This document shows, piece by piece, positions 12,145-55,115 of a DNA stretch of 64,000 nucleotides. This DNA is from Saccharothrix deserti (GTDB taxonomy: Bacteria > Actinomycetota > Actinomycetes > Mycobacteriales > Pseudonocardiaceae). The first letter of the stretch is position 1. Each line of letters starts with the position of its first letter. The stretch covers positions 176,732 to 240,731 of the forward strand of contig NZ_ML775960.1 of assembly GCF_009769385.1 (NCBI RefSeq). Reading direction: 5' to 3'. Both the position numbers and the translations under genes were made by a program. Below the pieces are notes generated by a model. The model was not told where the DNA came from and did not search any database. It saw only the letters and a list, made by a program, of their open reading frames with translations.

Positions 12145-12210
12145 GCGAGAGTCCTACGTTCAGAACGCGTGTGTCCTACGTTCAGAACACCCGAGTTCAA
12201 CGTTCAGCAC
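12145..12210 (+). repeat. Repeat array A: three 22-bp modules
   Basis: Three consecutive 22-bp modules at 12145-12166, 12167-12188 and 12189-12210. The first reads GCGAGAGTCCTACGTTCAG.., the second replaces GAGAGT by GTGTGT, and the third is a GAGTTCAACGTTCAG variant. The array starts 2 bp after the cupin TAA and lies between convergent genes. Related arrays occur near 15.4, 26.2 and 55.0 kb. Confidence 0.85.
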
Positions 12211-12226
12211 ACCCCGGCCAACGCAA

Positions 12227-12257
12227 AGGCGCCCCGAACGCAGCGTTCGGGGCGCCT
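12227..12257. terminator. Strong hairpin between cupin and phosphofructokinase genes
   Basis: A 14-bp perfect stem (12227-12240 with 12244-12257) with a 3-nt loop, placed between convergent genes directly after repeat array A. Confidence 0.8.
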
Positions 12258-12274
12258 GAACGGACAGGTGTCGA

Positions 12275-13300
12275 TCAGCCGAAGAAGACCTCGGCCTCGG
12301 CGTAGCGCTCCATCGGAACGGTCTTCAGCTCCGCGGTCGCCTCGGCCAGCTTCACCCGGACGATATCGGTGCCGCGCAGCGCGACCATGACGCCGAAGTC
12401 GCCCTCGGCGACCGCGTCCACCGCGTGCAGGCCGAAACGGGTGGCGAGCACCCGGTCGTAGGCGGTCGGGATGCCGCCGCGCTGGACGTGGCCCAGCACG
12501 ACCGCGCGGGACTCCTTGCCGGTCCGCTCCGCGATCTCCTCGGCCAGCCAGGTGCCGATGCCGCCCAGCCGCACGTGGCCGAACGCGTCCTTCTCACCGG
12601 AGTGCAGCACCTCGGCGCCGCCCTCGGGCATCGCGCCCTCGGCGACCACGATGATCGGGGCGAACTGGCGCTCGAAGCGCCGCTCCACCCACTCGACCAC
12701 CTTGTCGACGCTGAACTGCCGCTCGGGCACCAGGATCACGTTCGCACCGCCGGCCAGGCCCGAGTGCAGCGCGATCCAGCCCGCGTGCCGGCCCATGACC
12801 TCGACGACCAGCGCCCGGTGGTGCGACTCGGCCGTCGTGCGCAGCCGGTCGATCGCCTCGGTGGCGATGTGCACGGCGGTGTCGAAGCCGAACGTGTAGT
12901 CGGTCGCGCCCAGGTCGTTGTCGATGGTCTTCGGCACGCCCACGACGCCGATGCCGTCGTCGGTCAGCCGCTTGGCCACACCGAGGGTGTCTTCGCCGCC
13001 GATCGCGATCAGCGCGTCGACCTTGTTCGCGGCGAGGTTCTCGCGGATCCGGTCGACACCGCCCTCGACCTTGTACGGGTTGGTGCGCGACGAGCCGAGG
13101 ATGGTGCCGCCCCTGGTGAGGATGTCCTCGACTTCACCGAGCCCGACCGGCTTGGTCAGGTTCTCGATCGGCCCCTGCCATCCGTTCCGGAACCCCACGA
13201 TCTCCCAGCCGTGGGCCTCGATGCCCTTGCGGACCACAGCGCGGATGACCGCGTTGAGGCCGGGGCAGTCGCCACCGCCGGTGAGCACACCAATGCGCAT
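12275..13300 (-). CDS. 6-phosphofructokinase with pyrophosphate-type active-site residues
   Basis: A 341-residue phosphofructokinase catalysing phosphorylation of fructose 6-phosphate. GGGDCPGLNAVIR near residue 8, GGED at 101-104, PKTIDND at 123-129 and MGRHAGW mark the family; Asp127 is the catalytic base by alignment. Asp104 and Lys124 occupy the positions where ATP-dependent enzymes usually have Gly, and they are the residues associated with pyrophosphate dependence in the Amycolatopsis methanolica group III enzyme. The start at ATG 13300 puts MRIGVLTGGG at the N-terminus, as in homologues; an upstream extension to 13381 lacks family similarity. Its 3' end faces the cupin gene across a strong hairpin. 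Confidence 0.93.
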   Translation of the reverse strand: MRIGVLTGGGDCPGLNAVIRAVVRKGIEAHGWEIVGFRNGWQGPIENLTKPVGLGEVEDILTRGGTILGSSRTNPYKVEGGVDRIRENLAANKVDALIAIGGEDTLGVAKRLTDDGIGVVGVPKTIDNDLGATDYTFGFDTAVHIATEAIDRLRTTAESHHRALVVEVMGRHAGWIALHSGLAGGANVILVPERQFSVDKVVEWVERRFERQFAPIIVVAEGAMPEGGAEVLHSGEKDAFGHVRLGGIGTWLAEEIAERTGKESRAVVLGHVQRGGIPTAYDRVLATRFGLHAVDAVAEGDFGVMVALRGTDIVRVKLAEATAELKTVPMERYAEAEVFFG

Positions 13301-13392
13301 TTGCTTAGCCAATCTCTTCTCGTGGCGTGGGTCACCCAAGACTGACACGCCCTGGATCGGTGCAGCAAGCGAGGGGTCCAATTACCGGACTG

Positions 13393-13905
13393 TTACCGGA
13401 GTGCGAAACCTTTGCGCAGCCGTTCCGTCTCGATCACCTTCCACCGGGCCAGGTTGTGCCGGGCGTCCGCCAATGCATCATGCGCGTCCGCCGGGGCCTG
13501 CGGCAACCGGGGTTTGCCCACGTCCTCCCAGCGTTGCCGCAGGTCACGGGTGAACCGGGGCAGGCAGCGCGGCAGGGCCGGCATCGGGCCCCAGAGCTGC
13601 GCCAGCGCCACGTGGTCGTAGGCCGCGAACCAGGCCCACAGCTCGATGTCGTCCCGGTTGGCCTTGGGGCCGCCGAGGAAGTCGAGGAGGTCCTTCCGGA
13701 TCCGCTCCCGGCTGCGCCACGCCTGGCTGGCGGGCGACGGCAGCTGGTTGAGCACGTTCGCGCGCACCCACGGACCGGCCTTGGCCGGGTCGAACTCGGT
13801 GGACACGGCGTAGAACTCGCGGCCTTCCTCGTCGACCACTCCGATGGAGACGAGGTCGATCGTCACCCCGTCTTCGATGAACTCACAGTCGTAGAAGAAC
13901 CGCAC
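13393..13905 (-). CDS. Rv2179c-like 3'-5' exoribonuclease (RNase AS)
   Basis: A 170-residue DEDD-type exonuclease. YDCEF gives Asp6 and Glu8 of motif I; AAYDHVAL supplies the motif II Asp; DAHDALADARHN near 142-153 supplies the last His and Asp. Size and motifs match mycobacterial Rv2179c (RNase AS), reported to act on adenylate-containing single-stranded RNA ends. It sits 22 bp upstream of no other gene on its strand except the acyltransferase, whose stop is at 13928, so the two are probably co-transcribed with acyltransferase first. The family is conserved across actinobacteria in this neighbourhood. Confidence 0.85.
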   Translation of the reverse strand: MRFFYDCEFIEDGVTIDLVSIGVVDEEGREFYAVSTEFDPAKAGPWVRANVLNQLPSPASQAWRSRERIRKDLLDFLGGPKANRDDIELWAWFAAYDHVALAQLWGPMPALPRCLPRFTRDLRQRWEDVGKPRLPQAPADAHDALADARHNLARWKVIETERLRKGFALR

Positions 13906-13927
13906 ACCACCACCCTAGGGGTGGCGT

Positions 13928-14659
13928 TCAGCCCGCCTTCGTCTCGGGCAGCCGATCGACCGCTTTCGCGGGCTGCGGGGCGGCCTGCGCCTCCTTGGCC
14001 TTGGCCGCGTAGACGTCCACGTACTCCTGACCGGACAGCTCCATCAGGGCGTACATGATCTCGTCGGTGATGGACCGCAGCACGAACCGGTCGCCGGACA
14101 GGCCCTCGTAGCGGGAGAAGTCCAACGGCTTGCCGATCTTGATCCGGATCGGGTACGGCTTCCACATCCTCGAGCCGATGGGGTTGGCCTTGTCCGTGCC
14201 GAACATCGCGACCGGGATGACCGGCGCGCCGGACTCCAGCGCGATCCAGGCGACGCCGACCTTGCCCTTGTAGAGGCGGCCGTCGGGCGACCGGGTGCCC
14301 TCGGGGTAGATGCCCAGCAGCTTGCCCTCGCGCACGATCCGCACGCCGGTGTCGAGCGCGCCCTGGGCGGCCGACGCGCTGGACCGGTCGATCGGGACCT
14401 GGCCGACGCCGAAGAAGAACCAGCGCTGCAAGGCGCCCTTGAGGCCCTTGCCGGTGAAGTACTCGATCTTGGCCGGGAAGGTGACCCGGCGGGACAGCTT
14501 CAGCGGGAGGAAGAACGAGTCGGAGACCGCGAGGTGGTTGCTCGCCAGGATGGCGCCGCCCTCCTTGGGGATGTTCTCCGCGCCCTCGATGATCCGGGGT
14601 CGGAAGAACAGCTTCAGGAGCGGCCCGAGAAAGATGTGTTTCATCAACCAGTAGAGCAC
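13928..14659 (-). CDS. 1-acyl-sn-glycerol-3-phosphate acyltransferase (PlsC family, Rv2182c-like)
   Basis: A 243-residue PlsC-family acyltransferase of phospholipid synthesis. The catalytic NHLAVSD motif (His42, Asp47) and the substrate motif YPEGTRSPDGRLYKG are present. GTG 14659 is chosen because AGGAGG lies 11 nt upstream and the N-terminus LYWLMKHIFLGPLLKLF then matches family starts; the frame is open further upstream to 14761. The C-terminal tail after LSGQEYVDVYAA is Ala/Pro/Lys-rich. A second, shorter paralogue lies at 40.9 kb. Known role of the family: transfer of acyl chains to lysophosphatidate at the membrane. Confidence 0.9.
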   Translation of the reverse strand: MLYWLMKHIFLGPLLKLFFRPRIIEGAENIPKEGGAILASNHLAVSDSFFLPLKLSRRVTFPAKIEYFTGKGLKGALQRWFFFGVGQVPIDRSSASAAQGALDTGVRIVREGKLLGIYPEGTRSPDGRLYKGKVGVAWIALESGAPVIPVAMFGTDKANPIGSRMWKPYPIRIKIGKPLDFSRYEGLSGDRFVLRSITDEIMYALMELSGQEYVDVYAAKAKEAQAAPQPAKAVDRLPETKAG

Positions 14660-14861
14660 CGCTGGGAGCGCCTCCTCGACGAGCTTGATCCCCGCCGCCA
14701 GCCTACGGAGCCGACGGCACAAGACACAACGAAGACCCGCGCGAAGGCGGTACGGTCCCAAGGTCCACCGGCTGCCGTAATCCGCAACACAACGGGCTCG
14801 TGGGACGATGAACCCTGGCAGAAGGATTGGCCTTCACGACTCGGAGGGCTGGAGCACGCCC

Positions 14862-15347
14862 ATGAACTCCCGACGCGATTCGACCGACGGCCCGGAGGAC
14901 GTCGACGCGACGTTCGCCGAGATCGTGGCGGGCCTGGAACGCGAAGGCGTGGGCAGGCAGGCCTGGTCGGACGACGACGAACCGGACGAGGACGACGAGG
15001 CGGAGCCCGTGCGGCCGGTGCGGCCCGAGGGGCAGCCCGCCGTCGCGACCGTCGAGGACGGGCCCGACGACGATGACGCGGATCCGGACTCGGACGACCC
15101 GAACGACCACTACGTGCCGCCGGAGCCGCCGCCGTTGCCCGCGTTGCGGCCGGGGACGATCGCCGCGTTGCTGGTGATCGTGCTGGGTGTCGTGCTGCTG
15201 GTCGCGCCGGGCCTGTTCGGCCTGACCGGCGCGATCGGGACGCCGCTGGCGCTGATCGTGATGTGCTCGGGTGCCGGCTGGCTGATCCTCCGCATGCGCA
15301 GCGGCCCCCCACCGGACTCCGGCTGGGACGACGGCGCAGTCCTGTGA
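14862..15347 (+). CDS. Acidic membrane protein (DUF308-like, Rv2183c position)
   Basis: A 161-residue protein of two parts: a highly acidic, presumably disordered cytoplasmic region (residues 1-95, with runs of Asp/Glu and a helix DVDATFAEIVAGLER), then a Pro-rich hinge and two transmembrane helices (about 108-128 and 134-153). ATG 14862 is chosen over the upstream 14808 because GGAG lies 9 nt before it and homologues begin with the acidic DATFAEIV block. The function is unknown. It is convergent with the MEDS-domain gene and followed by repeat array B. Confidence 0.7.
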   Translation: MNSRRDSTDGPEDVDATFAEIVAGLEREGVGRQAWSDDDEPDEDDEAEPVRPVRPEGQPAVATVEDGPDDDDADPDSDDPNDHYVPPEPPPLPALRPGTIAALLVIVLGVVLLVAPGLFGLTGAIGTPLALIVMCSGAGWLILRMRSGPPPDSGWDDGAVL

Positions 15348-15354
15348 CCCACCC

Positions 15355-15566
15355 CCGCCGAACGTAGAACTCGCCGCACCCGAACGTTCGACACACCCAA
15401 CGCGAACGTTCGACTCACGCGAGAGTCGAACCTCCAGGTCCCGAGAGTCGAACGCTCAGGGGGCCCGAGTTCAACACTCACGTCGGCCAGCGGGGTACCT
15501 GAGCGTTGAATTCAGGGGACCTGGAGGTTCGACTCTCGGGGCCTGGGTGTTCGACTCACGCGCGGG
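15355..15566. repeat. Repeat array B: about nine modules with nested inverted repeats
   Basis: About nine copies of the 22-bp-type module fill the space between two convergent genes. Three read on the minus strand at 15358-15420, three on the plus strand at about 15419-15482, and three on the minus strand at 15496-15566. Variants include GAGAGTCGAACCTCC, GAGAGTCGAACGCTC, GTGTGTCGAACGTTC and GAATTCAACGCTC. A 23-bp perfect inverted repeat joins 15420-15442 to 15516-15538, enclosing a 10-bp one joining 15451-15460 to 15498-15507. The last module abuts the TGA of the MEDS-domain gene. Confidence 0.85.
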
Positions 15567-16499
15567 TCAGGGGCCGACGGTCAGGCGGATGGTGTAGCCG
15601 TCCCGGTCTCGGGTCATGGTGACGTCGCGGCACGTGCGGTGGGTGAGCCAGAGGCCCACGCCGGCCGTGGCGGAGCGGTCGGTCGGCACGAGGCCCGCCA
15701 GGGGTGACGTTGGGCCGTTGCCGCGGTCCGTCACGGCGACCAGCACGTGCGCCCGGCCGGCCCACGCGCGCAGCGTCACCGGCGGTTTGCCGTGGTACTG
15801 CGCGTTGGTGACGGCCTCGCTGGCGGCGTACACGATGTCGTCCACCTCGTCGCGGCTCAGGCGGACGGCGGAGCACGCCGTCGTCACCGCACGCCGCGCC
15901 TCGGCGGGCGAAGGGTCGGTCAGCTCGACCAGGGGCGGTTCGGACTCGAGCGACGTGGGCTCGGCGGGCGGCAACGCCCAGGACGACGTGTAGTGCGGGT
16001 TCCGCACGTGTGCCCCGTCCGCCCCGATCACGTGCGGATGGGTGCGCAGGACGTCCGCCAGCACGGGGGCAGGCGTGGTGCGCAGGTCGTACGGGCACAG
16101 CCCCCACAGCGGGACCTCGGCGAAGACCTCGTTCACCGCCGCCTCGTACCGCGACCACCAGTCCCACGACCCGCCGATGCCGGGGTGCGGCACCTCGCCC
16201 ACCACCCGGATCTGCGCCGCCCCCGCGTACTCGGCGAACAGCTTCCGGTACGTCAGGATCGCCTCGGTCGGCCGGTCGTACTGGTCACCGGCGGGCAGGA
16301 AGACGATGCCGGAGGCGTCCGCCACCGAATCCCGGATCAGCCGCTCGTTGGCCGACCGGCACGCCACCAGCACGGGCTCGCGGGCCGACACACCGCCGTC
16401 CAGGAACGGCACGACGATCGACCGGTAGTCGTCGTCGCTGCCGTAGAACGCCGTCTCGTGGAAGTGGCCGATGTGCCCGCGCGCCGCGCCCGTCCTCAT
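15567..16499 (-). CDS. MEDS-domain sensor fused to an anti-sigma-type HATPase
   Basis: A 310-residue protein. Residues about 8-165 form a MEDS (DcmR-type sensory) domain, starting GHIGHFHETAFYGSDDDYRSIV. Residues about 180-308 form a RsbW/SpoIIAB-like GHKL ATPase with the N-box DDIVYAASEAVTNAQYHG and the G-box region TDRGNGPTSPLAGLVP. Such fusions are known in actinobacteria as candidate anti-sigma or partner-switch kinases; no sigma factor or anti-sigma antagonist is adjacent, so its partner must be elsewhere. It is separated from the upstream ROK gene by 182 bp containing a hexamer repeat. Its stop adjoins repeat array B. Confidence 0.8.
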   Translation of the reverse strand: MRTGAARGHIGHFHETAFYGSDDDYRSIVVPFLDGGVSAREPVLVACRSANERLIRDSVADASGIVFLPAGDQYDRPTEAILTYRKLFAEYAGAAQIRVVGEVPHPGIGGSWDWWSRYEAAVNEVFAEVPLWGLCPYDLRTTPAPVLADVLRTHPHVIGADGAHVRNPHYTSSWALPPAEPTSLESEPPLVELTDPSPAEARRAVTTACSAVRLSRDEVDDIVYAASEAVTNAQYHGKPPVTLRAWAGRAHVLVAVTDRGNGPTSPLAGLVPTDRSATAGVGLWLTHRTCRDVTMTRDRDGYTIRLTVGP

Positions 16500-16637
16500 C
16501 CGGACACCGCCGGATCCGCGCAGGGCCCGCGGACGTCGTGGTCGCGCGGCCCCGGTCTCCGGATGTCGGCTACGGCGCCGGAGGTCCGCATTCCGCGATG
16601 CTACGCGCGACCGGCGGCCAGTGCCGGTGCCCGCTGG

Positions 16638-16673
16638 CCAGTGCCAGTGCCAGTGCCAGTGCCGGTGCGGGTG
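16638..16673. repeat. Hexamer tandem repeat (CCAGTG)n
   Basis: Four perfect CCAGTG units at 16638-16661 are followed by two degenerate units to 16673, with looser copies on both sides (16618-16637 and 16681-16688). It lies between the ROK stop and the MEDS gene start. Slippage of this tract could vary the promoter or leader spacing of the MEDS gene. Confidence 0.85.
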
Positions 16674-16681
16674 CCCGTCGG

Positions 16682-17653
16682 TCAGTGCCGTCGCCCGTTG
16701 CGGGCCGTCTTCGCGGCCAGGTCGCGCGCCAGCGTGGCCACGCCGACGATCCCCGCGTCGTCACCGAGCTGCGCGGTCCGGATGCGCGCCAACGGCCGGT
16801 GCCCGGCCCCCGTCACCACGGCCGCGTAACGCTCACGGGCGTCGTCCAGGAACAACGGCGCGGACTCCGACACGCCACCGCCGATCACCACGACCTCGGG
16901 GTCGTACACGTCGGCGACCAGCGCCAACCCGTCCCCCAGCCACCGGGCCAGGTCCGCCATCGCGCGCTGCGCCAACGGGTCGCCATCGCGCGCCGCGCCC
17001 GCCACCCGCCGCCCGGTCACCGCCCGCGAGTCGCCCAACGCCTCACGCGCCAGCACCGTCGACAGACCGGGGTACCGGGCCAGCAGCTCGACCGCCGTGG
17101 TGCTCAACGCCGTGCCGCTGCAGTACCGCTCCCAGCACCCGTTCTTGCCGCACGGGCACGGCCGCCCGTCCGGCACCAGCCGCAGGTGCCCCAGTTCGGG
17201 CGCCACGCCGTACCCGCCGCGGAACACGTGGCCGTCGATCAGCAACGCCCCGCCGATCCCGGTGCCGATCGCGATCAGCGCGGCGATCTTCGCGCCACGC
17301 GCCGCGCCGAACCGGTGCTCGGCCAGCGCGGCGGCGTTCGCGTCGTGCTCCAGCACCACCGGCATACCGACGCGCTTCGAGATCCGGTCCGCGACGGGCG
17401 CCTGCCGCCACGCCAGGTGCGGCGCGAACCGCACGGTCCGCCGGTCCGAGTCCACGAACCCGGCCACGGCCAGGCCGACCGCCGACACCGGGTGCCGGGA
17501 CGCCAGCTCGGCGACGGCCGCGCAGAGCGCTTCCTCCAACGCCTCTTCACCGCTCGGCGTGGCCGCACGTGCCGTGTCGAGCACGGCGCCGTCACCGTCG
17601 ACCACACCCGCACGCACGCTCGTCCCGCCGACGTCGACGCCGACAGTCAGCAC
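16682..17653 (-). CDS. ROK-family sugar kinase (glucokinase-like)
   Basis: A 323-residue ROK kinase. DVGGTSVRAGVVD at residue 7 is the phosphate-binding loop; EHDANAAALAEHRFGAARG and IGTGIGGALLIDG are the conserved sugar and ATP regions with the catalytic Asp; PELGHLRLVPDGRPCPCGKNGCWE carries the zinc-binding His/Cys signature of ROK proteins. Glucose phosphorylation is most likely, but N-acetylmannosamine or other hexoses cannot be excluded. GTG 17653 overlaps the 3' end of the preceding gene, so translation is coupled. It is the last gene of a minus-strand operon starting near 20892. Confidence 0.88.
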   Translation of the reverse strand: MLTVGVDVGGTSVRAGVVDGDGAVLDTARAATPSGEEALEEALCAAVAELASRHPVSAVGLAVAGFVDSDRRTVRFAPHLAWRQAPVADRISKRVGMPVVLEHDANAAALAEHRFGAARGAKIAALIAIGTGIGGALLIDGHVFRGGYGVAPELGHLRLVPDGRPCPCGKNGCWERYCSGTALSTTAVELLARYPGLSTVLAREALGDSRAVTGRRVAGAARDGDPLAQRAMADLARWLGDGLALVADVYDPEVVVIGGGVSESAPLFLDDARERYAAVVTGAGHRPLARIRTAQLGDDAGIVGVATLARDLAAKTARNGRRH

Positions 17654-23158: not shown

Positions 23159-26143
23159 ATGGGCGCTGGGCCGTGGTTCGGCCTTCTCGGCCCGCTTGAA
23201 GTGCGCATACAGGGTCGACCGGTGTCGGTTCGGGCGGGTAAGCACCGTGCGCTGCTGGCCGCGTTGTCACTGCGCGCCGGCCGGGTCGTCTCAATTGGCG
23301 AATTGGTCTCGTTCCTGTGGGGCGACGACCCGCCCGCCCGCACTCGCGGCACGTTGCAGACCTACGTCATGCGGCTTCGGCAACTCCTGGGCGACCCGTC
23401 GCTGATCCGGACCACTTCGGACGGCTACCGGTTGGTGGTGCCGCCGGAGCACGTGGACGTGCACCGGTTCACCACCACGGCGGGCCTCGCCCGGCAGGCC
23501 GCGCAGTCCGGGCACCTGGTGGACGCGGCCGAGCTGTACGCGGAGGCGTTGAACCTGTGGCGCGGTCCGGCGCTGTCGGACGTGCCGTCGGAGGCGTTGC
23601 GCGACGACGAGGTGCCGAGGCTGGCCGAACGGCTGCTGGTGGTGCACGAGGAGCGCAACGACGTCGAGCTCGCGTTGGGCAACCACGAGCGGCTGGTGCC
23701 GCTGCTGCGGTCGTTGACCGCGGACCACCCGCTGCGGGAGCGGTTCTGGGCGCAGCTGATGGTGGCGCTGTACCGGGCCAGCAGGCAGGCCGAGGCGCTG
23801 GAGGCGTTCCGGCTGGTCGACCGGATGCTGGACGAGCAGCTGGGCATCGAGCCGGGCGCGGCGCTGCGCCGGCTGCACCAGGCGATCCTGGTCGGCGACC
23901 CGAGCCTGGCCGCGCCCGCCGAACGGGCCGACCCCGACGTGCCGGACCAGCTGCCGCCGGACGTGCCGGAGTTCGTCGGGCGGGTCGAGCTGGTGGACCG
24001 GATCTCGCGGCTGATCGCGCCGGACGAGCCGCGCACCGCCGTGCCGATCGTGGCGCTGACGGGCGTGCCGGGTGTGGGCAAGACGGCGTTGGCGGTGCAC
24101 GTGGCGCACCGGCTGCGGGACCGGTTCCCGGACGGTCGGCTGTACGTGGACCTGCGCGGGTACGCGCCCGGACCGGCGACGCCGGTGGTGGAGGTGCTGA
24201 CCCGGTTCCTGCGGGCGCTCGGCGTGCCACCGGAGCAGATCCCGGTGGACGTGGACGAGCAGAGCACCCTGTTCCGGTCGTTGCTGACCGGTCGGCGGAT
24301 GCTGCTGGTGCTGGACAACGCCGCCGCGCCGGACCAGGTGCGGCCGCTGCTGCCGGGTGCGGCGAGCTGTCCGGTGCTGGTGACCAGCCGGGACGACCTG
24401 CGCGGGCTGATCGCCGTCGACGGCGCCCGCCGGGTCGGGCTGGACGTGTTCGAGCCGCACGAGTCGCTGGCCCTGCTGCGGCGGTCCGGGCAGGCGGCGG
24501 AGGAGTTGGCGCGGCGTTGCGGGCACCTGCCGTTGACGTTGGACATCGTGGCGGCGTCGGTGGGCGGCGGGTCGGTGGCGCGGTACCTGAACCGGTTGGG
24601 CGGGCGCCATCCGCTGGACCTCGCGCACGCCGCGCTGACGCCGGGCGCGCGGCGGCTGTTCGGGTTGCTGAGCGTGGTGCCGGGGCCGGACTTCACCACC
24701 GAGGCGGCGGCGAACGCGGCCGACCTGCCGGTGCCGGAGGCCGCCGCGCTGCTCGACCAGCTGACCAGGGCGCGGCTGGTGCGCTCCGGGGCGGGGCGGT
24801 TCGCGTTCCACGACGAGCTGGCGCGGTTCGCCGCGTCGGTCGCGGACGCGGCGCCGGCCGACGAGGTGGGTGCGGCGCGCGTGCGGCTGCTGGAGTTCTA
24901 CGTGCGTGCGGTGGACCACTGCGCCGAGCTGTTGTACCCGGACCTGATGCGGTTGCCCGCGCCGGCCGGGCGGGCGGTGCGGCTGCCGCAAATCGAGACG
25001 GCGGCGCAGGCGCGGGCGTGGCTGGACGCGGAGCGGGCGAACCTGACCGCGGCGATCCGTTCGGCGGCCGAGCGCGGGCCGGCCGCGGTGTCGTGGCGGC
25101 TGGCCGACGCGCTGCGCGGGTACCTGTGGATCGGCAAGCACGTCACCGAGTGGCTGTCGACCGCGCAGTACGGGTTGGACGCGGCGCACGAGCAGCGTGA
25201 CGTCGCGGGTGAGGCGGCGATGCACCAGAACCTGGGCACGCTGCACTGGCGGCTCGGCGACTTCGAGACGTCGATCGCGCACTACACGCGGGCCGTCGAG
25301 CTGCACCGGATGTCCGGTGACCTGGAGTCCGAGGCGGGGGTGCGGGAGAACCTCGGTGTGGTGCGGCTGGAGTCCGGTGACCTGGCGTCGGCGCGGAACG
25401 ACCTGGAGACGTGCCTGGCGTTGAAGCGCGAGTCCGGCGGGCCGCGGTCGGGTGAGACGGGTGTGCTGACCGGGTTGGGCGTGCTGGCGATCGAGACCGG
25501 TGAGCTGGCCGAGGCGGTGGACCTGCTGGGTGAGGCGCTGGCGATCAGCGTGGAGCACGGGTTGCGCGGCAGTGAGATCACCGCGTTGACGTTGTTGGGC
25601 GTGGCGTCACAGCTCATGAGTGAGCCGCAGCGCGCGCTGTCCCACCTGTCCGAAGCGTTGCGCCTGTCGACCGAGGCGGGGTTCCACGAGGCCGCCGCAC
25701 GGGCCTTGGAGAGCATCGCGTCCGTGCGCCTGGACCTCGGTGAACACGCCGAGGCGCTGGCGCTGGCCGACCGGGCGTTGGCCGAACTGCGCGAGGACGG
25801 CGACCAGCGGATCACCACGAACGTCCTGGTGGTGATGGCCTCCGCGAACCGCGGCCTCGGCTCCCTCCGCACCGCCGACGAGCAGTTCCAGCAGGCCCTC
25901 ACCAAGGCCCGCCGAATCGGCTACCTCCCCGGCGAGGCTCGCGCCCTGGTGGGATTGGCGACCGTCCGCAGACTCCTGGGCCAACTCACCGAGGCGAAAA
26001 CCCTCGCCACCCAAGCCGTGACCCTCACCGCGACCCTGGGCCTCCGCGTGACCGAACGCTCCGCCCGCACCGAACTGGCCGCCGTCCACCTGGCCTTGGG
26101 TGATGATCACCCCGCCGCACCCGGCCCGACCTCCCGAACGTAG
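23159..26143 (+). CDS. AfsR-like SARP regulator (winged helix, BTAD, NB-ARC, TPR)
   Basis: A 994-residue multidomain regulator. Residues 1-95 are an OmpR-type DNA-binding domain (FGLLGPLEVRIQGRPVSV); about 98-245 the BTAD domain ending RMLDEQLGIEPGAALRRLH; about 270-560 an NB-ARC ATPase with P-loop GVPGVGKTAL near 302-311 and the Walker B region RMLLVLDNAA; about 660-960 several TPR-type helical repeats. Such proteins activate secondary-metabolite genes in response to nucleotide-coupled signals. No biosynthetic cluster is adjacent, so its targets are probably elsewhere. ATG 23159 follows GGGGACGCAGGCGG. Its TAG stop lies inside a repeat module of array C. Confidence 0.9.
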   Translation: MGAGPWFGLLGPLEVRIQGRPVSVRAGKHRALLAALSLRAGRVVSIGELVSFLWGDDPPARTRGTLQTYVMRLRQLLGDPSLIRTTSDGYRLVVPPEHVDVHRFTTTAGLARQAAQSGHLVDAAELYAEALNLWRGPALSDVPSEALRDDEVPRLAERLLVVHEERNDVELALGNHERLVPLLRSLTADHPLRERFWAQLMVALYRASRQAEALEAFRLVDRMLDEQLGIEPGAALRRLHQAILVGDPSLAAPAERADPDVPDQLPPDVPEFVGRVELVDRISRLIAPDEPRTAVPIVALTGVPGVGKTALAVHVAHRLRDRFPDGRLYVDLRGYAPGPATPVVEVLTRFLRALGVPPEQIPVDVDEQSTLFRSLLTGRRMLLVLDNAAAPDQVRPLLPGAASCPVLVTSRDDLRGLIAVDGARRVGLDVFEPHESLALLRRSGQAAEELARRCGHLPLTLDIVAASVGGGSVARYLNRLGGRHPLDLAHAALTPGARRLFGLLSVVPGPDFTTEAAANAADLPVPEAAALLDQLTRARLVRSGAGRFAFHDELARFAASVADAAPADEVGAARVRLLEFYVRAVDHCAELLYPDLMRLPAPAGRAVRLPQIETAAQARAWLDAERANLTAAIRSAAERGPAAVSWRLADALRGYLWIGKHVTEWLSTAQYGLDAAHEQRDVAGEAAMHQNLGTLHWRLGDFETSIAHYTRAVELHRMSGDLESEAGVRENLGVVRLESGDLASARNDLETCLALKRESGGPRSGETGVLTGLGVLAIETGELAEAVDLLGEALAISVEHGLRGSEITALTLLGVASQLMSEPQRALSHLSEALRLSTEAGFHEAAARALESIASVRLDLGEHAEALALADRALAELREDGDQRITTNVLVVMASANRGLGSLRTADEQFQQALTKARRIGYLPGEARALVGLATVRRLLGQLTEAKTLATQAVTLTATLGLRVTERSARTELAAVHLALGDDHPAAPGPTSRT

Positions 26144-26300
26144 GACACACCCCTCCGGAACGGAGGACACACCCAACGCGAACGTAGGACATACGCGAGA
26201 GTCGAACACTCAGGTCGGGTGTGTCCTACGTTCAGAACCGGTGTGTCCTACGTTCGCGGGCGGTGTGTCCTACGTTCGCGGGCGGTGTGTTGAACGTTCA
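26131..26300. repeat. Repeat array C: about eight modules, including stop codons of both flanking genes
   Basis: Three modules read on the minus strand (about 26131-26200) and five on the plus strand (about 26195-26300). Two plus-strand modules are identical 22-bp direct repeats (26239-26260 and 26261-26282). The first minus module contains the TAG stop of the SARP gene (26141-26143), and the last plus module contains the TGA stop of pimB (26298-26300). Confidence 0.88.
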
Positions 26301-27428
26301 GGTGTTGATCAAGGTGGCCAGGCGGTCGGCCAGGGCGTCCCAGCGCCAGTTGGCGGTGACCCATTCGCGGCCGGCGGCGCCCATCTTGGCGGCGGTGCCC
26401 GGGTCGGCCAGGAGGGTGGCGATGGTGGTGGCGACCTCCGTGACCTCACGGCCGTCGACCACGCGCCCGGTCACGCCGTCGCGCACCGTCTCCGGTGCGC
26501 CCCCGGAGCGGCCCGCCACGACCGGCAGGCCGGTGGCCGACGCCTCCAGGTACACGATGCCGAGGCCCTCGACGTCCAGCCCACGCCCCCGCGTCCGGCA
26601 CGGCATGGCGAACACGTCACCCGCGTTGTAGTGCGCGGGCAGCTCCTCCCACGGCACGGACCCGGTCAGCACGACGTGATCCGACACCCCGACCGAAGCG
26701 GCCAGCCGTTCCAACGTCTTCCGGTACGGCCCACCGCCCACCAGCAGCAACGCCGCGTCGGGCACCTGCCGCCGGATCTCCGGCAACGCCCGCACCAGCA
26801 CGTCCTGCCCCTTCCGCGGCACGAGCCGCGACACGCACACCACCACCGGCCGGTCACCCAACCCGTACCGCGCCCGCACCGCCTCACGCTCGGCTGGAGA
26901 AGGCGCGAAAACCGACGTGTCCACACCGGACGGCAGGTGTTCCAAAGCCGCCAAAGGCCCGAACGCCGCCGCGAACCGCGACCGCGTGTACCGGCTCACG
27001 AACGTCACCACATCCACGTCCGACCCGATGCGCCGCAACGCCTGCCGCGCCCCCGGCAGCATCGACCACCCGACCTCGTGCCCGTGCGTGGAAGCCACCA
27101 CCCGCGAAGCACCAGCGGCCCGCAACCGGGACGTCATCAACGCCAACGGCGCCGCCGCCCCGAACCACACGGCCTCACAGCGCGCTCCACGCAGGATGTC
27201 CGACGCACGCCGCACCACGTCCGGTGTGGGCAGCATCAACGTCCCCGGATGCCGCACCACCTCGAACGGCTGGGCCGCGTCGAACGACGGGTGCGAGCCC
27301 GCGGCCGATTCCCACGACGGCGCGTACACCACCAACTCGGGCAGCCGCACGGCCAACGCGTGCAGGTAGGCCTGGATACCGCCGGGCCGTGGCGGGAAGT
27401 CATTGGTCACCAACAGGGTCCGACGCAC
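26298..27428 (-). CDS. pimB: Phosphatidylinositol monomannoside mannosyltransferase, GT4 family
   Basis: A 376-residue GT-B glycosyltransferase of family GT4. It starts LVTNDFPPRPGGIQAYLHAL; SRLVPRKGQDVLVRALPEI and VGGGPYRKTLERLA form the nucleotide-binding domain; EGLGIVYLEASATGLPVVAG contains the E-x7-E motif of retaining GT4 enzymes. By size, motifs and place after fadD15 it matches PimB (Rv2188c), which adds the second mannose from GDP-mannose to PIM1 on the cytoplasmic face. The GTG start at 27428 lies 25 bp after the stop of the secreted protein gene on the same strand, so co-transcription is likely. Its stop codon is embedded in a repeat module. Confidence 0.9.
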   Translation of the reverse strand: MRRTLLVTNDFPPRPGGIQAYLHALAVRLPELVVYAPSWESAAGSHPSFDAAQPFEVVRHPGTLMLPTPDVVRRASDILRGARCEAVWFGAAAPLALMTSRLRAAGASRVVASTHGHEVGWSMLPGARQALRRIGSDVDVVTFVSRYTRSRFAAAFGPLAALEHLPSGVDTSVFAPSPAEREAVRARYGLGDRPVVVCVSRLVPRKGQDVLVRALPEIRRQVPDAALLLVGGGPYRKTLERLAASVGVSDHVVLTGSVPWEELPAHYNAGDVFAMPCRTRGRGLDVEGLGIVYLEASATGLPVVAGRSGGAPETVRDGVTGRVVDGREVTEVATTIATLLADPGTAAKMGAAGREWVTANWRWDALADRLATLINT

Positions 27429-48136: not shown

Positions 48137-48161
48137 GGTTACTGCGGTTCCAGCGGGTCGA

Positions 48162-49675: not shown

Positions 49676-49681
49676 GGTGTG

Positions 49682-50314
49682 GTGAGGTTCCTGCGCCGCA
49701 ACGCCGACGAAGCCGCTGACACCACCGCCGAGGACATGCCGGCGGAGGTGAACCCGGCCGATCCGTCGCGCACGCCCGCCAAGGGCCGGCCCACGCCGAA
49801 GCGACGTGAGGCGGAGGGCAAGCGGCGCGGCCCCGTGCCGCCGCCGCCGAGGACGCAGCGCGAGGCGTTGAAGCGGGCGCGCGGGAACAAGGTGTCCAAG
49901 GAAGAGCGCCGTGCGGCGGCGGTCGAGCGGCGGCAGCGGATGATGGCCGGCGAGGACAAGTACCTCCTGCCGCGCGACCGCGGGCCGGTGAAGGCCTACA
50001 TCCGCGACGTGGTCGACTCGCGGCGCAACCTCATGGGCCTGTTCATGCCGCTGGCCATCCTGGTGTTCGTGGCGCTGCTCGTGCCCATGCCCGCGGTCCA
50101 GCAGTACGCGACGCTGGTGACCACGTTCATGCTGCTGGCGATGATCCTGGAGGGCTTCGTGCTCGGCCGGCTGGTCGTCAAGCGGGTGCGGCTGAAGTTC
50201 CCGGACGACACCAGCCGCGGCCTGTCCATCGGCTGGTACTCGTTCATCCGCGCCAGCCAGCTGCGCCGCCTGCGCGTCCCCAAGCCGCGGGTCTCCCCCG
50301 GCGACAAGGTCTGA
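49682..50314 (+). CDS. DUF3043 membrane protein (Rv2206-like)
   Basis: A 210-residue protein. A long basic/Pro-rich cytoplasmic part (residues 1-110, with KKERR-type clusters such as SKEERRAAAVERRQRMM) is followed by the conserved RDVVDSRRNLMGLFMPLAILVF and two transmembrane helices (about 112-132 and 138-160), then WYSFIRASQLRRLRVPKPRV. These blocks define the DUF3043 family of actinobacteria, located beside cobT and the glycerate kinase in mycobacteria. Its role is unknown. The start at GTG 49682 gives VRFLRRNADEA. Confidence 0.85.
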   Translation: MRFLRRNADEAADTTAEDMPAEVNPADPSRTPAKGRPTPKRREAEGKRRGPVPPPPRTQREALKRARGNKVSKEERRAAAVERRQRMMAGEDKYLLPRDRGPVKAYIRDVVDSRRNLMGLFMPLAILVFVALLVPMPAVQQYATLVTTFMLLAMILEGFVLGRLVVKRVRLKFPDDTSRGLSIGWYSFIRASQLRRLRVPKPRVSPGDKV

Positions 50315-50327
50315 CGGACCACGCGGG

Positions 50328-51098
50328 CTACACCGGCCGTAGCGGGACGTCCTCCACGGACAGCGAGTCGGGTCCGTGCAACGCACCGAACACGGTGGTG
50401 AACGTGACCGTGACGCTGGTCGCGGAATCGGGCAGCGGCTCGCCGAACGTGATCGTCCCGGTCCTCGACTGCCCCGGCGGCACGGTGTCGGGCCACCTGC
50501 TGCGGAACGGCTCGCCCTCGACCGTGACGGCCCCGCTGGTGAGCTGCGAGTAGCCGAAGACCGGCAACGTGACCGAGGTGTCGTAGTCGTTCCGGACGGT
50601 CATCGTGACCTTGGTGAAGTGCGAGGTCACCTCGACCCCGTCCACCGTGAGCGCCAACGCGCCCGCGCTCGCCGACCTCGACTCGGCCAGCCGCTCGACG
50701 CCGGTCTCGTTCCCGGTGATCCAGCCGTAGGCGAACCGGGCGCCCGGCACGACGATCGCGACCACCACGGCGCACACCGCGAGACCGATCAACGCCGCCC
50801 GCCCCCGGCCGGACGACCGCTGCCGGGGCTGGTTCGGCGGCGGCCACCCGGAGGCCCGGTTCGGCGCCCCGAAAGGCGCCCCGGTCGGTGGCCCGGCGTG
50901 CCGTGGAGACGGGGTGTCGGTCGCGGTGGTCGCGGTCAGGACCGCGGCGACCACCGTGAGCCCGCCGACGACCAGCCAGAGCGTCACGCTGTCCGGCACG
51001 GCGGTGGCGAAGTTGATCGCGACGGCGACGGCGGTGCCGATCACCGGGGTGAGGACCGCGACGACCGCGGACCTGAACGCGGGGCTTCCACCGGACAT
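50328..51098 (-). CDS. Membrane protein with extracytoplasmic beta-rich domain
   Basis: A 256-residue protein. Two N-terminal hydrophobic helices (about 12-30 and 38-55) are followed by a Pro/Gly/Arg linker, a third helix (about 97-117), and a C-terminal domain of alternating strands (LALTVDGVEVTSHFTKVTMTV, TLPVFGYSQL, SVTVTFTTVFG) that resembles DUF4352-like immunoglobulin-type domains. The topology suggests the last 135 residues are outside the cell. I do not recognise a specific family. It is convergent with the DUF3043 gene, 13 bp apart. ATG 51098 is chosen over 51113. Confidence 0.6.
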   Translation of the reverse strand: MSGGSPAFRSAVVAVLTPVIGTAVAVAINFATAVPDSVTLWLVVGGLTVVAAVLTATTATDTPSPRHAGPPTGAPFGAPNRASGWPPPNQPRQRSSGRGRAALIGLAVCAVVVAIVVPGARFAYGWITGNETGVERLAESRSASAGALALTVDGVEVTSHFTKVTMTVRNDYDTSVTLPVFGYSQLTSGAVTVEGEPFRSRWPDTVPPGQSRTGTITFGEPLPDSATSVTVTFTTVFGALHGPDSLSVEDVPLRPV

Positions 51099-51245
51099 GG
51101 CGACTCCAAACACAGGCCCCGCCGGACCGGTCGTGGTGGCGGCGGTCTCATCGGAGTAATCGCGCTCGGCGAGTGGCCGTTAGCTCGCGCCCGGTTACCC
51201 GCAGTTCATTAGCTTGCCGAACGAGTCGTCACTAGACTCCGCGAC

Positions 51246-52235
51246 ATGGAGTTCCGACGCCTCGGCCGCAGTGGCCTCAACATCAGCGAGATCTCGTACG
51301 GCAACTGGATCACCCACGGGTCCCAGGTCGAGGAGGACCAGGCGACGGCCTGCGTCCACGCGGCGCTCGACGCCGGGATCACGACGTTCGACACCGCCGA
51401 CGTTTACGCCAACACCAAGGCCGAGTCCGTGCTGGGCCGGGCCCTGGCCGGTCAGCGCCGCGAGTCGCTGGAGATCTTCACCAAGGTCTTCTGGCCGACC
51501 GGCCCCGGCGGCCCGAACGACAAGGGCCTCGGCCGCAAGCACATCATGGAGTCGATCAACGGCTCGCTCAAGCGCCTCCAGACCGACTACGTCGACCTCT
51601 ACCAGGCGCACCGGTTCGACAAGTCGGTGCCGCTGGAGGAGACGATGCTCGCCTTCGCCGACCTCGTGCGGCAGGGCAAGGTGCTCTACATCGGCGTCTC
51701 CGAGTGGAACTCCGACCAGATCGCCCGCGGCGCGGCGCTCGCGCGTGAGCTGAACGTGCCGTTCATCTCCAACCAGCCGCAGTACTCGATGCTGTGGCGC
51801 GTGATCGAGTCGCAGGTCGTGCCGACCTCGGAGCGCGAGGGCATCAGCCAGATCGTCTGGTCCCCCATCGCGCAGGGCGTGCTGACCGGCAAGTACCTGC
51901 CGGGTCAGCCGGTGCCGGAGGGCTCGCGGGCGACCGACGAGAACGGCGGCGCGAAGTTCATCCAGCGCTTCCTGCGCGACGACGTGCTGGAGAAGGTCCA
52001 GCGGCTCAAGCCGCTGGCGGACGAGGCCGGTCTGTCGCTCGCGCAGCTCGCGGTCGCGTGGACGCTGCAGAACCCGAACGTGGCGAGCGCGATCATCGGC
52101 GCGTCCCGCCCCGAGCAGGTGCACGAGAACGCGAAGGCCGCCGGCGTGACGCTGGACGCGGACCTGATGAAGAAGATCGACGACGTGCTCGAGGGCGTCG
52201 TGGAGACCGACCCGCGCTTGACCGTCACCCCGTGA
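51246..52235 (+). CDS. Aldo/keto reductase, potassium-channel beta-subunit-like
   Basis: A 329-residue NADPH-dependent AKR. The catalytic tetrad is visible: Asp and Tyr in FDTADVYANTKAE near residues 50-55, Lys in FTKVFW near 81, and His in YQAHRFD near 120. SNQPQYSMLWR and SPIAQGVLTGKYLPG are typical of the AKR6/7 type that resembles Shaker-beta. It reduces aldehydes or ketones; the substrate is unknown. AGACTCCGCGAC precedes ATG 51246 with only a weak ribosome binding site. It ends in a terminator shared with the small convergent gene. Confidence 0.9.
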   Translation: MEFRRLGRSGLNISEISYGNWITHGSQVEEDQATACVHAALDAGITTFDTADVYANTKAESVLGRALAGQRRESLEIFTKVFWPTGPGGPNDKGLGRKHIMESINGSLKRLQTDYVDLYQAHRFDKSVPLEETMLAFADLVRQGKVLYIGVSEWNSDQIARGAALARELNVPFISNQPQYSMLWRVIESQVVPTSEREGISQIVWSPIAQGVLTGKYLPGQPVPEGSRATDENGGAKFIQRFLRDDVLEKVQRLKPLADEAGLSLAQLAVAWTLQNPNVASAIIGASRPEQVHENAKAAGVTLDADLMKKIDDVLEGVVETDPRLTVTP

Positions 52236-52242
52236 CGGCGTG

Positions 52243-52273
52243 CCTCGCCCCGGTCTACTCGGCCGGGGCGAGG
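52243..52273. terminator. Hairpin between the aldo/keto reductase and the 66-residue ORF
   Basis: CCTCGCCCCGG (52243-52253) pairs perfectly with CCGGGGCGAGG (52263-52273) across a 9-nt loop. The right arm lies within the last codons of the convergent small gene. Confidence 0.8.
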
Positions 52274-52455
52274 GACATCGGGCCGTAGACCTCGGATTCG
52301 CTGCGCAGCAGCGTCACCTGCGCGACACCCGCCTCCCGCAGCTCGACCCACGCCGAACCGAACCAGTCCTCGGCCGCGGTCTGGTCGTCGAACGCGATGC
52401 GCGGGCCGTCGACCTCTCGGCCCTGCTCGTCCTGGTAGCGCCACCGGTACTCCAT
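52255..52455 (-). CDS. Small conserved actinobacterial protein, 66 residues
   Basis: A 66-residue protein starting MEYRWRYQDEQGREVDGP, with a central acidic helix (FDDQTAAEDWFGSAWVELREAG) and a strand VAQVTLLRSESEVYGPM. GAGGAGG lies 7 nt before ATG 52455, which decides the start; the longer frame to 52548 is not needed. Proteins of this style are common hypothetical genes in actinomycetes (from memory). It is divergent from cobU by 77 bp. The function is unknown. Confidence 0.75.
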   Translation of the reverse strand: MEYRWRYQDEQGREVDGPRIAFDDQTAAEDWFGSAWVELREAGVAQVTLLRSESEVYGPMSLAPAE

Positions 52456-52532
52456 GGCGACCTCCTCACGACGTGTCCGCCGGGTAACGTTCCCGGTCAG
52501 GCTATGTCCTCCCGGAACAGATGGAGTGCGGT

Positions 52533-53090
52533 GTGACGCGTCGGACACTGGTGCTGGGCGGCGCGCGTTCGGGCAAGTCGGCGCACGCCGAGGGGTTGCT
52601 CGCGGACGACGTCGTGACCTACGTCGCCACCGCCAGGCGCTACCCGGACGACGCGGACTGGGAGCTGCGGATCGCCCAGCACGTGGCCCGTCGTCCCAGC
52701 ACGTGGACCACGGTCGAGGCGCCCGCGCCGAACGACCTGATCTCCCTGCTCACCAAGAGCCGCGAGACCGACCCGCCGATCCTGGTGGACGACGTGGCCA
52801 CCTGGCTCAACGGCGTGTTGGACGACGCCGGCGCGTGGGAGGGCCACGGCATCGGGCAGGTCGAGGACGAGTGCGCGTTGCTGGTCCGGGCGGTCGCGCG
52901 GACGCGCAGCCGGCTGGTCCTGGTGTCGGCGGAGGTCGGCCTCGGCGTCGTGCCCAGCACCCACTCTGGCAGGCTCTTCCGCGATCACCTCGGTTCGCTC
53001 AACGCGCGGCTGGCCGAGGTGTGCGACGAAGTGCTGCTGGTCGTCGCCGGAATCCCACTGCGATTGCGCGAACCCGGAGGTAGTCGGTGA
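52533..53090 (+). CDS. cobU: Adenosylcobinamide kinase / adenosylcobinamide-phosphate guanylyltransferase
   Basis: A 185-residue bifunctional enzyme. The P-loop GGARSGKS lies near residues 8-15; YVATAR and the downstream [13 protein letters not shown] region are typical; [27 protein letters not shown] in part is the strongly conserved C-terminal block with the guanylated His region upstream. It phosphorylates adenosylcobinamide and transfers GMP, forming AdoCbi-GDP. GTG 52533 has GGAG 6 nt upstream; ATG 52521 is an alternative. It starts the cobU-cobT-cobS operon; its stop overlaps cobT (GTGA). Confidence 0.93.
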
Positions 53091-54124
53091 CGATCGAGTT
53101 CCCGTCCGTCGAGCCGCCCGATGAGGACGTGCGCGGCCAGGCGATCGCCCGGCACGGCGTGCTCACCAAGCCCGCGGGATCGCTGGGCAAGCTGGAGGAG
53201 CTCGGTGTCTGGGTGGCGGCGTGCCAGGGCCAGTGCCCGCCCCGGCCGTTCACCCGGCCCCGCGTGGTGGTGTTCGCGGGTGACCACGGGGTGGCGCAGC
53301 ACGGCGTGTCGGCGTACCCGAGCGAGGTCACCGGCCAGATGGTGGCGAACTTCCTCGCGGGCGGCGCGGCGGTGAACGTGCTGGCGAACGTGGCCGGCGC
53401 GACCGTGCGCGTGGTCGACCTGGCGGTCGACTCCGAGACCTCGGTCGGCGATTTCAAGGTGCGGCGCGGTTCCGGGTCCATCGACCGCGAGGACGCGTTG
53501 ACGCTCGAAGAGACCGAGAAGGCGATCGGGATCGGCCGCAAGCTGGTGGACGACGAGGTCGACGGCGGCGCGGACCTGCTCATCGCCGGCGACATGGGCA
53601 TCGGCAACACGACGCCGGCGGCGGTGCTGATCGCCGCGTTGACGGGTTCCGAGCCGGTCGCCGTGGTCGGCCGCGGCACGGGTATCGACGACCAGGGCTG
53701 GATGCGCAAGACCGCCGCGATCCGGGACGCGTTGCGCCGTGCCCGGCCGGTGATCAACGACCCGGTGGCGTTGCTGGCCTCCGCGTCCGGTGCGGACATC
53801 GCCGCGATGGCCGGGTTCCTGGCGCAGGCGGCGGTGCGCAAGACGCCGGTGATCCTGGACGGCGTGGTGGTCGGCGCGGCGGCCGTGGTGGCCGAGGAGT
53901 TGGCGCCGGGCGCGCGTGAGTGGTGGGTGGCCGGGCACCGGTCCGTGGAGCCCGCGCACTCGTTGGCGCTGGGTCACCTGAGCCTGGAACCGTTGCTGGA
54001 GTTCGACATGCGGCTCGGTGAGGGTTCCGGCGCGGTGGCGGCGCTGCCGCTGGTGGTGATGGCGACCCGGATCCTGGCCGAGATGGCGACCTTCGACAGC
54101 GCGGGCGTTTCCGGACCCGCCTGA
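53087..54124 (+). CDS. cobT: Nicotinate-nucleotide-dimethylbenzimidazole phosphoribosyltransferase
   Basis: A 345-residue Cob[15 protein letters not shown] near residues 26-39, [24 protein letters not shown] in part, [12 protein letters not shown] and the catalytic Glu region [29 protein letters not shown] in part are characteristic. It makes alpha-ribazole phosphate, the lower-ligand precursor of cobalamin. Coupled to cobU upstream and overlapping the cobS start (TGATG) downstream. Its position next to cobS matches Rv2207-Rv2208; cobU is here directly in front, which from memory is not the case in M. tuberculosis. Confidence 0.95.
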
Positions 54125-54861
54125 TGCGGTTGGCGTTGTCGTGGCTGACGGTGCTGCCCGTCCGCGTCGGTTCCGGCGAGGTCGACGCGCGGGCGGCACG
54201 GCGGGCCATCGCGTTCGCGCCATTGGTGGGGTTGTTGCTGGGCGGGGCGGTCGTCGGGCTGCTGGCGCTGTTGAGCCTGCCGGACGTGACACCGCCGGAT
54301 CTGGCCCCGCCCGATCTTCTGGCGGGGTTCCTGGTCGTCGGGTTCCTGGCGTTGGCGACGCGCGGGATGCACCTGGACGGCTTGGCCGACACCGCCGACG
54401 GCTTGGGGTGCTACGGGCCTCCGGAGCGTGCGCTGGCCGTCATGAAGGACGGTGGCGCGGGGCCGTTCGCGGTGGTGGCGCTGATCGTGGTGCTGGGCGC
54501 GGAGGCCGCCGCGTTCCCGACCGTCCACTGGGGAGCGGTGCTGCTGGCGCTGACGGCCGGGCGGGCCGCGTTCGTGTTGTGCTGCGTGGAAGGCGTGCCC
54601 GCCGCACGTCCCGAGGGGTTGGGCGCGTTGGTGGCGGGCAGCCAGCCGGTGTGGGTGGCGGCGTTGTGGTGGGTGGGCCTCGCCGTGGCGGGGTTCTTCG
54701 TGCACCCGTGGCACGGCCCGCTCGCGGTCCTGCTCGCGGCGGGCTTGGTGCTGCTGCTGATCCGGCACACGCGCAAGCGGTTCGGCGGGATCACCGGCGA
54801 CGTGCTGGGCGCGGCCTGCGAAACCGCCACCCTCACCGTCCTCGCGATCTGCGCCCTCTAA
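54124..54861 (+). CDS. cobS: Adenosylcobinamide-GDP ribazoletransferase (cobalamin synthase)
   Basis: A 245-residue membrane protein with about six helices. GMHLDGLADTADGLG near residues 80-94 is the CobS signature with Mg-binding acidic residues, and KRFGGITGDVLGAACE near the C-terminus is the second. It joins adenosylcobinamide-GDP with alpha-ribazole in the membrane, the last step of the nucleotide-loop pathway. ATG 54124 overlaps the cobT stop. The TAA is followed immediately by array D of the intergenic repeat. Confidence 0.94.
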   Translation: MRLALSWLTVLPVRVGSGEVDARAARRAIAFAPLVGLLLGGAVVGLLALLSLPDVTPPDLAPPDLLAGFLVVGFLALATRGMHLDGLADTADGLGCYGPPERALAVMKDGGAGPFAVVALIVVLGAEAAAFPTVHWGAVLLALTAGRAAFVLCCVEGVPAARPEGLGALVAGSQPVWVAALWWVGLAVAGFFVHPWHGPLAVLLAAGLVLLLIRHTRKRFGGITGDVLGAACETATLTVLAICAL

Positions 54862-54863
54862 CC

Positions 54864-55115
54864 GCGAGAGTCGAACCCCCAGCGCTCGAGAGTCCTACGT
54901 TCGCGTAGCGAGAGTCCTACGTTCGCGTAGCGAGAGTCCTACGTTCGCGTAGCGAGAGTCCTACGTTCAGAACACCTGAATTCAACGCTCAGAACAGGCC
55001 TGGCCGTCCTGAGCGTTGAATTCGGGGTACGCGAACGTAGGACTCTCGAGCTCTGAATGTAGGACTCTCGCGTCCTGAACGTAGGACTCTCGGGCTCTGA
55101 ACGTAGGACTCTCGG
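54864..55115. repeat. Repeat array D: about eleven modules in two facing blocks
   Basis: Six plus-strand modules (54864-54995) face five minus-strand modules (55008-55115). Three consecutive plus modules are identical 22-bp repeats (54887-54908, 54909-54930 and 54931-54952). The module at 55028-55048 is the exact reverse complement of 54931-54951. The centre has a 15-bp perfect inverted repeat (54978-54992 with 55009-55023). The array fills the space between convergent cobS and ilvE, 2 bp from each stop codon. Confidence 0.92.

Follow-up and report, generated by a model that had tools for sequence, protein, structure and literature searches.

Repetitive extragenic palindromes (REPs) and bacterial interspersed mosaic elements (BIMEs) are the described systems closest to the tandem-module arrays reported here, which lie in intergenic spacers of a 64-kb stretch of the actinobacterium Saccharothrix deserti (contig NZ_ML775960.1, positions 176,732 to 240,731; hereafter the window). 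One account of BIMEs and REPs gives more than 100 copies per genome, with regularly spaced units in alternating orientation (PMC2817692), and another places REPs behind genes, between codirectional or convergent ones (PMC3733652). The S. deserti arrays likewise occupy spacers behind genes (36 convergent, 34 codirectional, and 2 divergent junctions in the sampled DNA). Unlike BIMEs, they consist of 21/22-bp tandem modules with an ordered last module, the unit is not a self-folding imperfect palindrome, and single-direction runs are common and unfolded (mean z of -0.72). Unlike REPs, the modules carry no constant GTAG or CGTC tag: GTAG occurs in 249 and CGTC in 18 of the 487 16-mers of this genome, and in 1 and 4 of 22 consensus units from other genera; the half that contains GTAG is no more than the CCTA dialect described below. 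PF01797 (Y1 transposase, the REP-associated tyrosine transposase or RAYT) was detected in 5/25 genomes of the genus, namely 3/14 with and 2/11 without strict module matches, and no module was present in the 3-kb loci around any of the seven transposase matches. The arrays are thus BIME-like in place and architecture and depart from the REP/BIME model in the self-palindromic unit, the constant tag, and the RAYT; a RAYT-driven mobile REP is ruled out, since Y1 transposases do not track the arrays.

Other known systems are more distant. The DNA uptake sequences of Neisseriaceae are reported to have species dialects and often to form inverted pairs associated with terminators (PMC3630211). They share with the arrays a short motif with dialects and mirrored pairs, but uptake sequences also occur inside genes, whereas the modules form tandem arrays, and the 1.09 Mb examined yielded no strong solitary one. 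The actinobacterial factor BldC is described as binding direct repeats as head-to-tail multimers, at promoter sites of 9 bp with the consensus AATTxxxx(C) (PMC5859096). The modules measure 21-22 bp, lie behind genes, and lack AATTxxxx(C), with AATT in some last modules only, so that site size and sequence rule out a BldC operator. Iterons of plasmid origins, likewise direct repeats about 22 bp long that also occur inverted, are confined to one origin, whereas the present arrays are dispersed over the chromosome. In the open-licence PubMed Central literature, no description of the arrays was recognised by title or abstract start among the matches listed, and six literal module strings led to no paper there.

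Arrays of ordered modules at gene 3' ends

The arrays follow a rule of placement: they sit at gene 3' ends, with convergent junctions preferred. Junctions were classified with gene calls from an own script in the window and loci L089-L148, together 1.09 of the 10.83 Mb of a genome in 162 contigs. Since this sample was chosen around module matches, with nine 20-kb stretches of module-poor contigs added, the array fractions compare classes of junctions and are not genome-wide rates. Arrays are present at 36/182 convergent, 34/628 codirectional, and 2/182 divergent junctions, and at 35/102, 34/283, and 2/170 of the respective gaps of at least 50 bp; both divergent cases held up on inspection. At codirectional junctions, 31/34 arrays are closer to the upstream stop codon than to the next start (median 8 nt versus 90 nt), a closeness matched by 0/10,000 random placements. 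The stop codon even extends into the outermost module in 11/70 convergent and codirectional cases, including both ends of array 3 of the window (Table 1). In convergent spacers, the arrays take up nearly all of the DNA between the two stop codons (median remainders 12 and 9.5 nt), which leaves little space for another terminator.

Within the window, 4/14 convergent, 0/34 codirectional, and 0/15 divergent junctions carry an array. A preliminary description of this DNA had assigned the arrays exclusively to convergent junctions and had proposed a lineage-specific 3'-end element. All four arrays of the window, and the convergent preference, agree with it, but exclusivity does not extend to the sampled genome, where 34/72 array junctions are codirectional; the link to gene 3' ends stands (2/72 divergent), and "lineage-specific" proved too narrow for an element found in many genera of the family. 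The same description had placed four arrays with roughly 31 modules of 22-bp period in the window. The arrays were recovered at these coordinates, the recount gave 31 modules (3 + 9 + 8 + 11), and the period is exactly 22 within each run.

One right half of the module, CCTACGTTC, occurs 14 times in the window versus 0.18 expected from shuffles, and 14/14 copies lie within arrays. Across the whole genome, the pattern GWGWGTYSWACGYTC gave 595 matches with at most one mismatch versus 6 for the reversed pattern, and 384 versus 0 with no mismatch. A position weight matrix collected 73 arrays of at least two modules (487 modules) from the 1.09-Mb sample, of which one (L118 1071-1136, two weak modules within a gene) lies outside any junction. 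Same-direction modules are spaced 22 bp with few exceptions. The four-base core follows an order with a special last module: in runs of at least three, first modules show CCTA in 54, CGAA in 52, and TCAA in 1 of 111 cases, middle modules in 162, 54, and 2 of 233, and the last module carries TCAA in 72/111 runs. The idea that modules are combinations of freely interchangeable halves is not borne out. Halves are associated (chi-square p of about 1e-10, 238 of 239 strict modules), GTGTGT being paired with CCTACGTTC in 98/102 and CGAACGxTC with GAGAGT or GTGAGT in 38/39 cases, which rules out free recombination of halves. Solitary modules with a score of at least 16 were absent from the 1.09-Mb sample, and a few single matches of score 14-17 occur inside genes; together with the near absence of divergent placement, the lack of strong solitary modules rules out an ordinary operator.

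Judged from these sequence features, the arrays are best read as possible boundary elements of transcription units in Pseudonocardiaceae that are recognised by a putative sequence-specific factor, a tentative reading whose chances fall short of even. Recognition at the DNA level is suggested because frame and period are kept while linkers are free and single-direction arrays are unfolded; a role in stopping or insulating transcription is suggested by the place of the arrays and the little space left for another terminator. Each module, comprising the frame G-G-GT-N4-CG-TC and a free linker, would be one recognition site. Sites recurring every 21-22 bp, i.e. about two helix turns, would align copies of the factor on one face of the DNA, and in mirrored runs two such lines would meet. 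An occupied array behind a stop codon would halt RNA polymerase and shield a convergent or downstream neighbour from read-through, to which mirrored arrays may add an RNA hairpin. The arrays would remain in place through speciation, while exchange within a genome would pull the modules to its own dialect. A more far-reaching version, which is doubtful, would see a family-wide modular boundary code of phased 21/22-bp sites for a dedicated putative DNA-binding protein, with a constant frame, a four-base dialect, and exchange between arrays. If true, it would represent a bacterial terminator or insulator of the roadblock type, distinct from termination by hairpins or by Rho.

Distribution in the family and persistence at one junction

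Sequence searches indicate that related arrays are present in many genera of Pseudonocardiaceae and hardly elsewhere. The strict pattern matched in 14/25 genomes of the genus (9 to 446 matches) and in none of the other 11, although zero strict matches can hide another dialect, since one of these 11 (G206) carries a diverged array at the 26.1-kb junction. A 66-position profile matched in 19/397 genomes of the order (12/85 genera); 18 of the 19, from 11 genera, belong to the family of the window, and other family members gave no match. At class level, it matched in 2/394 genomes, the window's own and a weak one. The family is taken as Pseudonocardiaceae from named relatives; one protein of the window has its best matches, at 89-92% identity, on Saccharothrix contigs. 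Absences in these profile searches weigh little, because 13 candidates per genome were scored and the size of the family sample is not given.

In ten genomes of other genera (22/23 loci), 22 convergent arrays (18 junctions), 9 codirectional, and 0 divergent ones were counted, and the period is 21 or 22, depending on the genome. Measured without the frame and with periods of 18-25 allowed, it is 21 or 22 in 33/36 array loci, which include two same-site pairs (L216/L251 and L230/L237). All 8 frame positions are present in 21/36 consensus units and at least 7 in 32/36, versus 0.13% and 4% of shuffled units. These shuffles drew on 22 of the 36 units; duplicates and additional units from a genome already represented were set aside, as were five units that were poor or lay off the array (L220, L221, L240, L242, and L245, with 5-7 of 8 positions matched). 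Frame positions agree in 13 to 16 of 16 genomes or named loci, and position 8 shows four different bases.

The arrays are also unevenly distributed along two chromosomes. In these complete genomes their positions are shifted towards the origin relative to expectation (median 0.38 and 0.27 of the half-chromosome; Kolmogorov-Smirnov p 0.001 and 4e-5), as scored with one pattern per genome and one position per cluster and with the length of G172 rounded to 9.2 Mb. Past 0.6 of the half-chromosome there are only 2/28 arrays in G088 and 4/41 in G172, and the tenth of the G088 chromosome closest to dnaA is free of them.

Orthologous junctions in the genus were scanned with the own-genome matrix, which other dialects can escape. 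The panel of named loci and the G panel of genomes are not independent, because six genomes are common to both (L011=G127, L012=G292, L013=G159, L014=G215, L015=G274, and L029=G296). The 26.1-kb junction holds an array or remnant in 11/11 of the closest genomes (at least 92% identity in the neighbouring protein), with varying module number and direction; the remnants are one hybrid module in G159 and two in G261. Among the 14 strict-match genomes, 11 have an array or remnant there, and G143, G268, and G224 do not. The named loci cover six genomes and four array-free outgroups with a gap of 3 to 69 nt. Since G159 has 243 strict matches elsewhere, its remnant reflects either loss at this junction or local assembly collapse. 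This genome, Saccharothrix carnea, shows just two modules and one module at two junctions (L013 2586-2623 and 12948-12963) where close relatives have full arrays. In 7/7 genomes with data, the modules at the 26.1-kb junction resemble other modules of their own genome more than those of the orthologous array (sign test 0.008). This concerted signal is mild: G000, G292, and G127 show it by small margins, and similarity taken over all genomes is 0.799 within the genome versus 0.786 between orthologues.

Several points weigh against a boundary role. Ten of the 14 convergent junctions of the window have no array, and by the own scan the 54.9-kb junction has one in just 3/25 genomes of the genus (G000, G274, and G240). 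Selection against promoter insertion would likewise leave a 3'-end bias, and part of the frame conservation is due to ascertainment, the search that led to the other genera having used a profile built from these very arrays. Single-direction codirectional arrays lean towards the sense orientation (12/17 here and 4/6 elsewhere, p 0.09), a bias for which action at the DNA level gives no need. Head-to-head offsets are 16 bp in 28/28 pairs of the own genome (arrays of at least three modules; offsets of 34 and 50 occur in two additional pairs of two modules) but in just 9/18 pairs of other genus genomes, where four junctions were counted twice. A fixed offset is therefore ruled out as a general rule, head-to-head spacing is not a fixed protein contact, and confidence was lowered accordingly. 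Tail-to-tail offsets are 37 bp in 13/25 own pairs and 36 in 3, with the remainder from 17 to 70; elsewhere in the genus they are 36 or 37 in 8/18, some junctions being counted twice.

Among the alternatives, a neutral or selfish repeat that grows by slippage, is copied by recombination, and gathers at gene 3' ends because it is harmless only there is also doubtful. The concerted signal in all seven genomes, small as it is overall, the changes of copy number and direction between species at one junction, and the dispensability of the array at 54.9 kb would be expected of it, and the placement resembles that described for REPs (PMC3733652). Neutrality accounts less well for a frame and a 21/22-bp period that are retained from genus to genus whereas N4 and linkers change (with the ascertainment just mentioned), for the 26.1-kb junction keeping its array or remnant in the 11 closest genomes, and for arrays that are sparse in origin-distal DNA rather than evenly spread. 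The Y1 transposases, which neither track the arrays nor have modules in the surrounding loci, also speak against it.

Other elements occupy the same kinds of junction. As judged by eye, the 54.9-kb junction of the other genus genomes holds a different long inverted repeat, plain hairpins, or almost no spacer. The hairpins and the other inverted repeat, standing where the window has its array, count in favour of a boundary role. A second inverted-repeat element (GGCTCGATTTGACATGG ... CCATGTCAAATCGAGCC, with variants and in some cases a nested second hairpin) was seen there in six genus genomes (L177, L178, L182, L184, L185, and L186), together with a module array in L186 alone. Unrelated 16- and 20-bp tandem arrays lie at this junction in genomes G110, G232, and G288 (L188 2631-2714, L191 1367-1433, and L193 1373-1447). 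Other kinds of tandem repeat also sit at convergent junctions of related genera, so that the convergent excess of tandem repeats does not all stem from this family. In Amycolatopsis sp. MtRt-6, a 21-bp tandem of GTGTGTCCGGAGGGGCATCAC just behind a stop codon at a convergent junction (L069 15790-15857) is possibly a further dialect or another family. Six array-free 26.1-kb spacers (L267, L268, and L276-L279) have the stretches GCGATACGACAG and GATCACTGGGGGTCGG in common; these precede a terminator-like hairpin and form a candidate small RNA (by eye), for which Rfam returned nothing credible in these spacers.

DNA site versus RNA fold

The arrays might also act as RNA, in that the very long hairpins of mirrored arrays would terminate transcription both ways or shield the 3' ends of mRNAs, as has been suggested for REPs and BIMEs. 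This is unlikely, although folding gives it some footing: 42/70 arrays are mirrored, and all 42 score lower than -2 in RNA-fold z, with group means between -10.2 and -12.0, versus a mean of -3.1 in 66 array-free convergent gaps. At convergent junctions, a hairpin of -15 or lower lies outside the array in 7/26 mirrored and 5/10 single-direction cases (array 1 being of the latter kind), a difference that is no more than a hint, and such a hairpin is present in 59/73 array-free convergent gaps. The measure is weak: values this low were also attained by 83% of 200 random coding stretches. The other 28/70 arrays run in a single direction and, taken together, show no more folding than shuffled sequences (mean z -0.72, 3/28 below -2), so that an RNA 3' structure, one of the roles suggested at the outset, cannot be general. 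In mirrored modules, the linkers show no in-register pairing (complementarity 0.471 versus 0.475 out of register), which together with the unfolded single-direction arrays favours DNA over a selected RNA stem. In-register core identity is higher (0.81 versus 0.73 off-register) because of the common module order, and a selected stem is weakened as a candidate. The U-tract of an intrinsic terminator is also missing: TTTT or AAAA within 20 nt accompanies 2/70 arrays versus 13/66 array-free convergent gaps (p 0.002). No known RNA family was recognised: Rfam yielded nothing at its gathering score anywhere in the window. Of the other two roles put forward in the preliminary description, a bidirectional terminator is plausible, and a binding site for a putative factor fits best.

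Least probable is an element of chromosome topology, on which gyrase or a nucleoid protein would act at positive supercoils behind genes, chiefly between convergent ones. The order convergent > codirectional > divergent follows the expected positive supercoiling, array placement on two chromosomes is uneven, and Escherichia coli gyrase cleavage sites are reported to be over-represented in BIME-2 (PMC6379681), but the kept frame and fixed period look more like a dedicated binding site, and arrays are sparse in origin-distal regions, where genes may converge no less.

The possible boundary role bears on the open question of how convergent transcripts are separated in actinobacteria. These bacteria have few U-tract terminators. 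The arrays offer hundreds of modules in one genome, whose place is fixed, whose grammar can be read, and which come in dialects. If the factor exists, they would represent termination or insulation by a protein on the scale of the chromosome; otherwise, they would serve as a clean natural case in which to follow how dispersed repeat arrays evolve in bacteria.

The four arrays of the window

Table 1. Modules, runs, and a candidate terminator in the window, with adjacent genes.
Feature	Position	Strand	Composition	Adjacent gene
Array 1	12146..12205	+	3 modules, single-direction: GAGAGTCCTACGTTC, GTGTGTCCTACGTTC, last CGAGTTCAACGTTC	Begins 4 positions past end of cupin-domain gene 11780-12142
Candidate ordinary terminator	12228..12256	.	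Perfect GC-rich inverted repeat behind array 1, read directly	Precedes phosphofructokinase gene 12275-13300(-) (Pfam)
Array 2 (15360-15560, 9 modules), run a	15360..15419	-	3 modules	Behind gene 14862-15347(+)
Array 2, run b	15420..15479	+	3 modules, head-to-head with run a, 16-bp offset	
Array 2, run c	15501..15560	-	3 modules, tail-to-tail with run b, 37-bp offset	Behind gene 15567-16499(-)
Array 3 (26136-26299, 8 modules), run a	26136..26195	-	3 modules	Gene 23222-26143(+) has its stop codon in the TAG of GAACGTAGGAC
Array 3, run b	26196..26299	+	5 modules	Last module holds start of stop codon of glycosyltransferase gene 26298-27428(-)
Array 4 (54865-55114, 11 modules), run a	54865..54990	+	6 modules, last TGAATTCAACGCTC	Behind CobS gene 54124-54861(+)
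Array 4, run b	55011..55114	-	5 modules, tail-to-tail with run a, 36-bp offset	Stops 3 positions short of aminotransferase gene 55117-56217(-)

The best hairpin to the right of array 1 reaches -30.0 kcal/mol.

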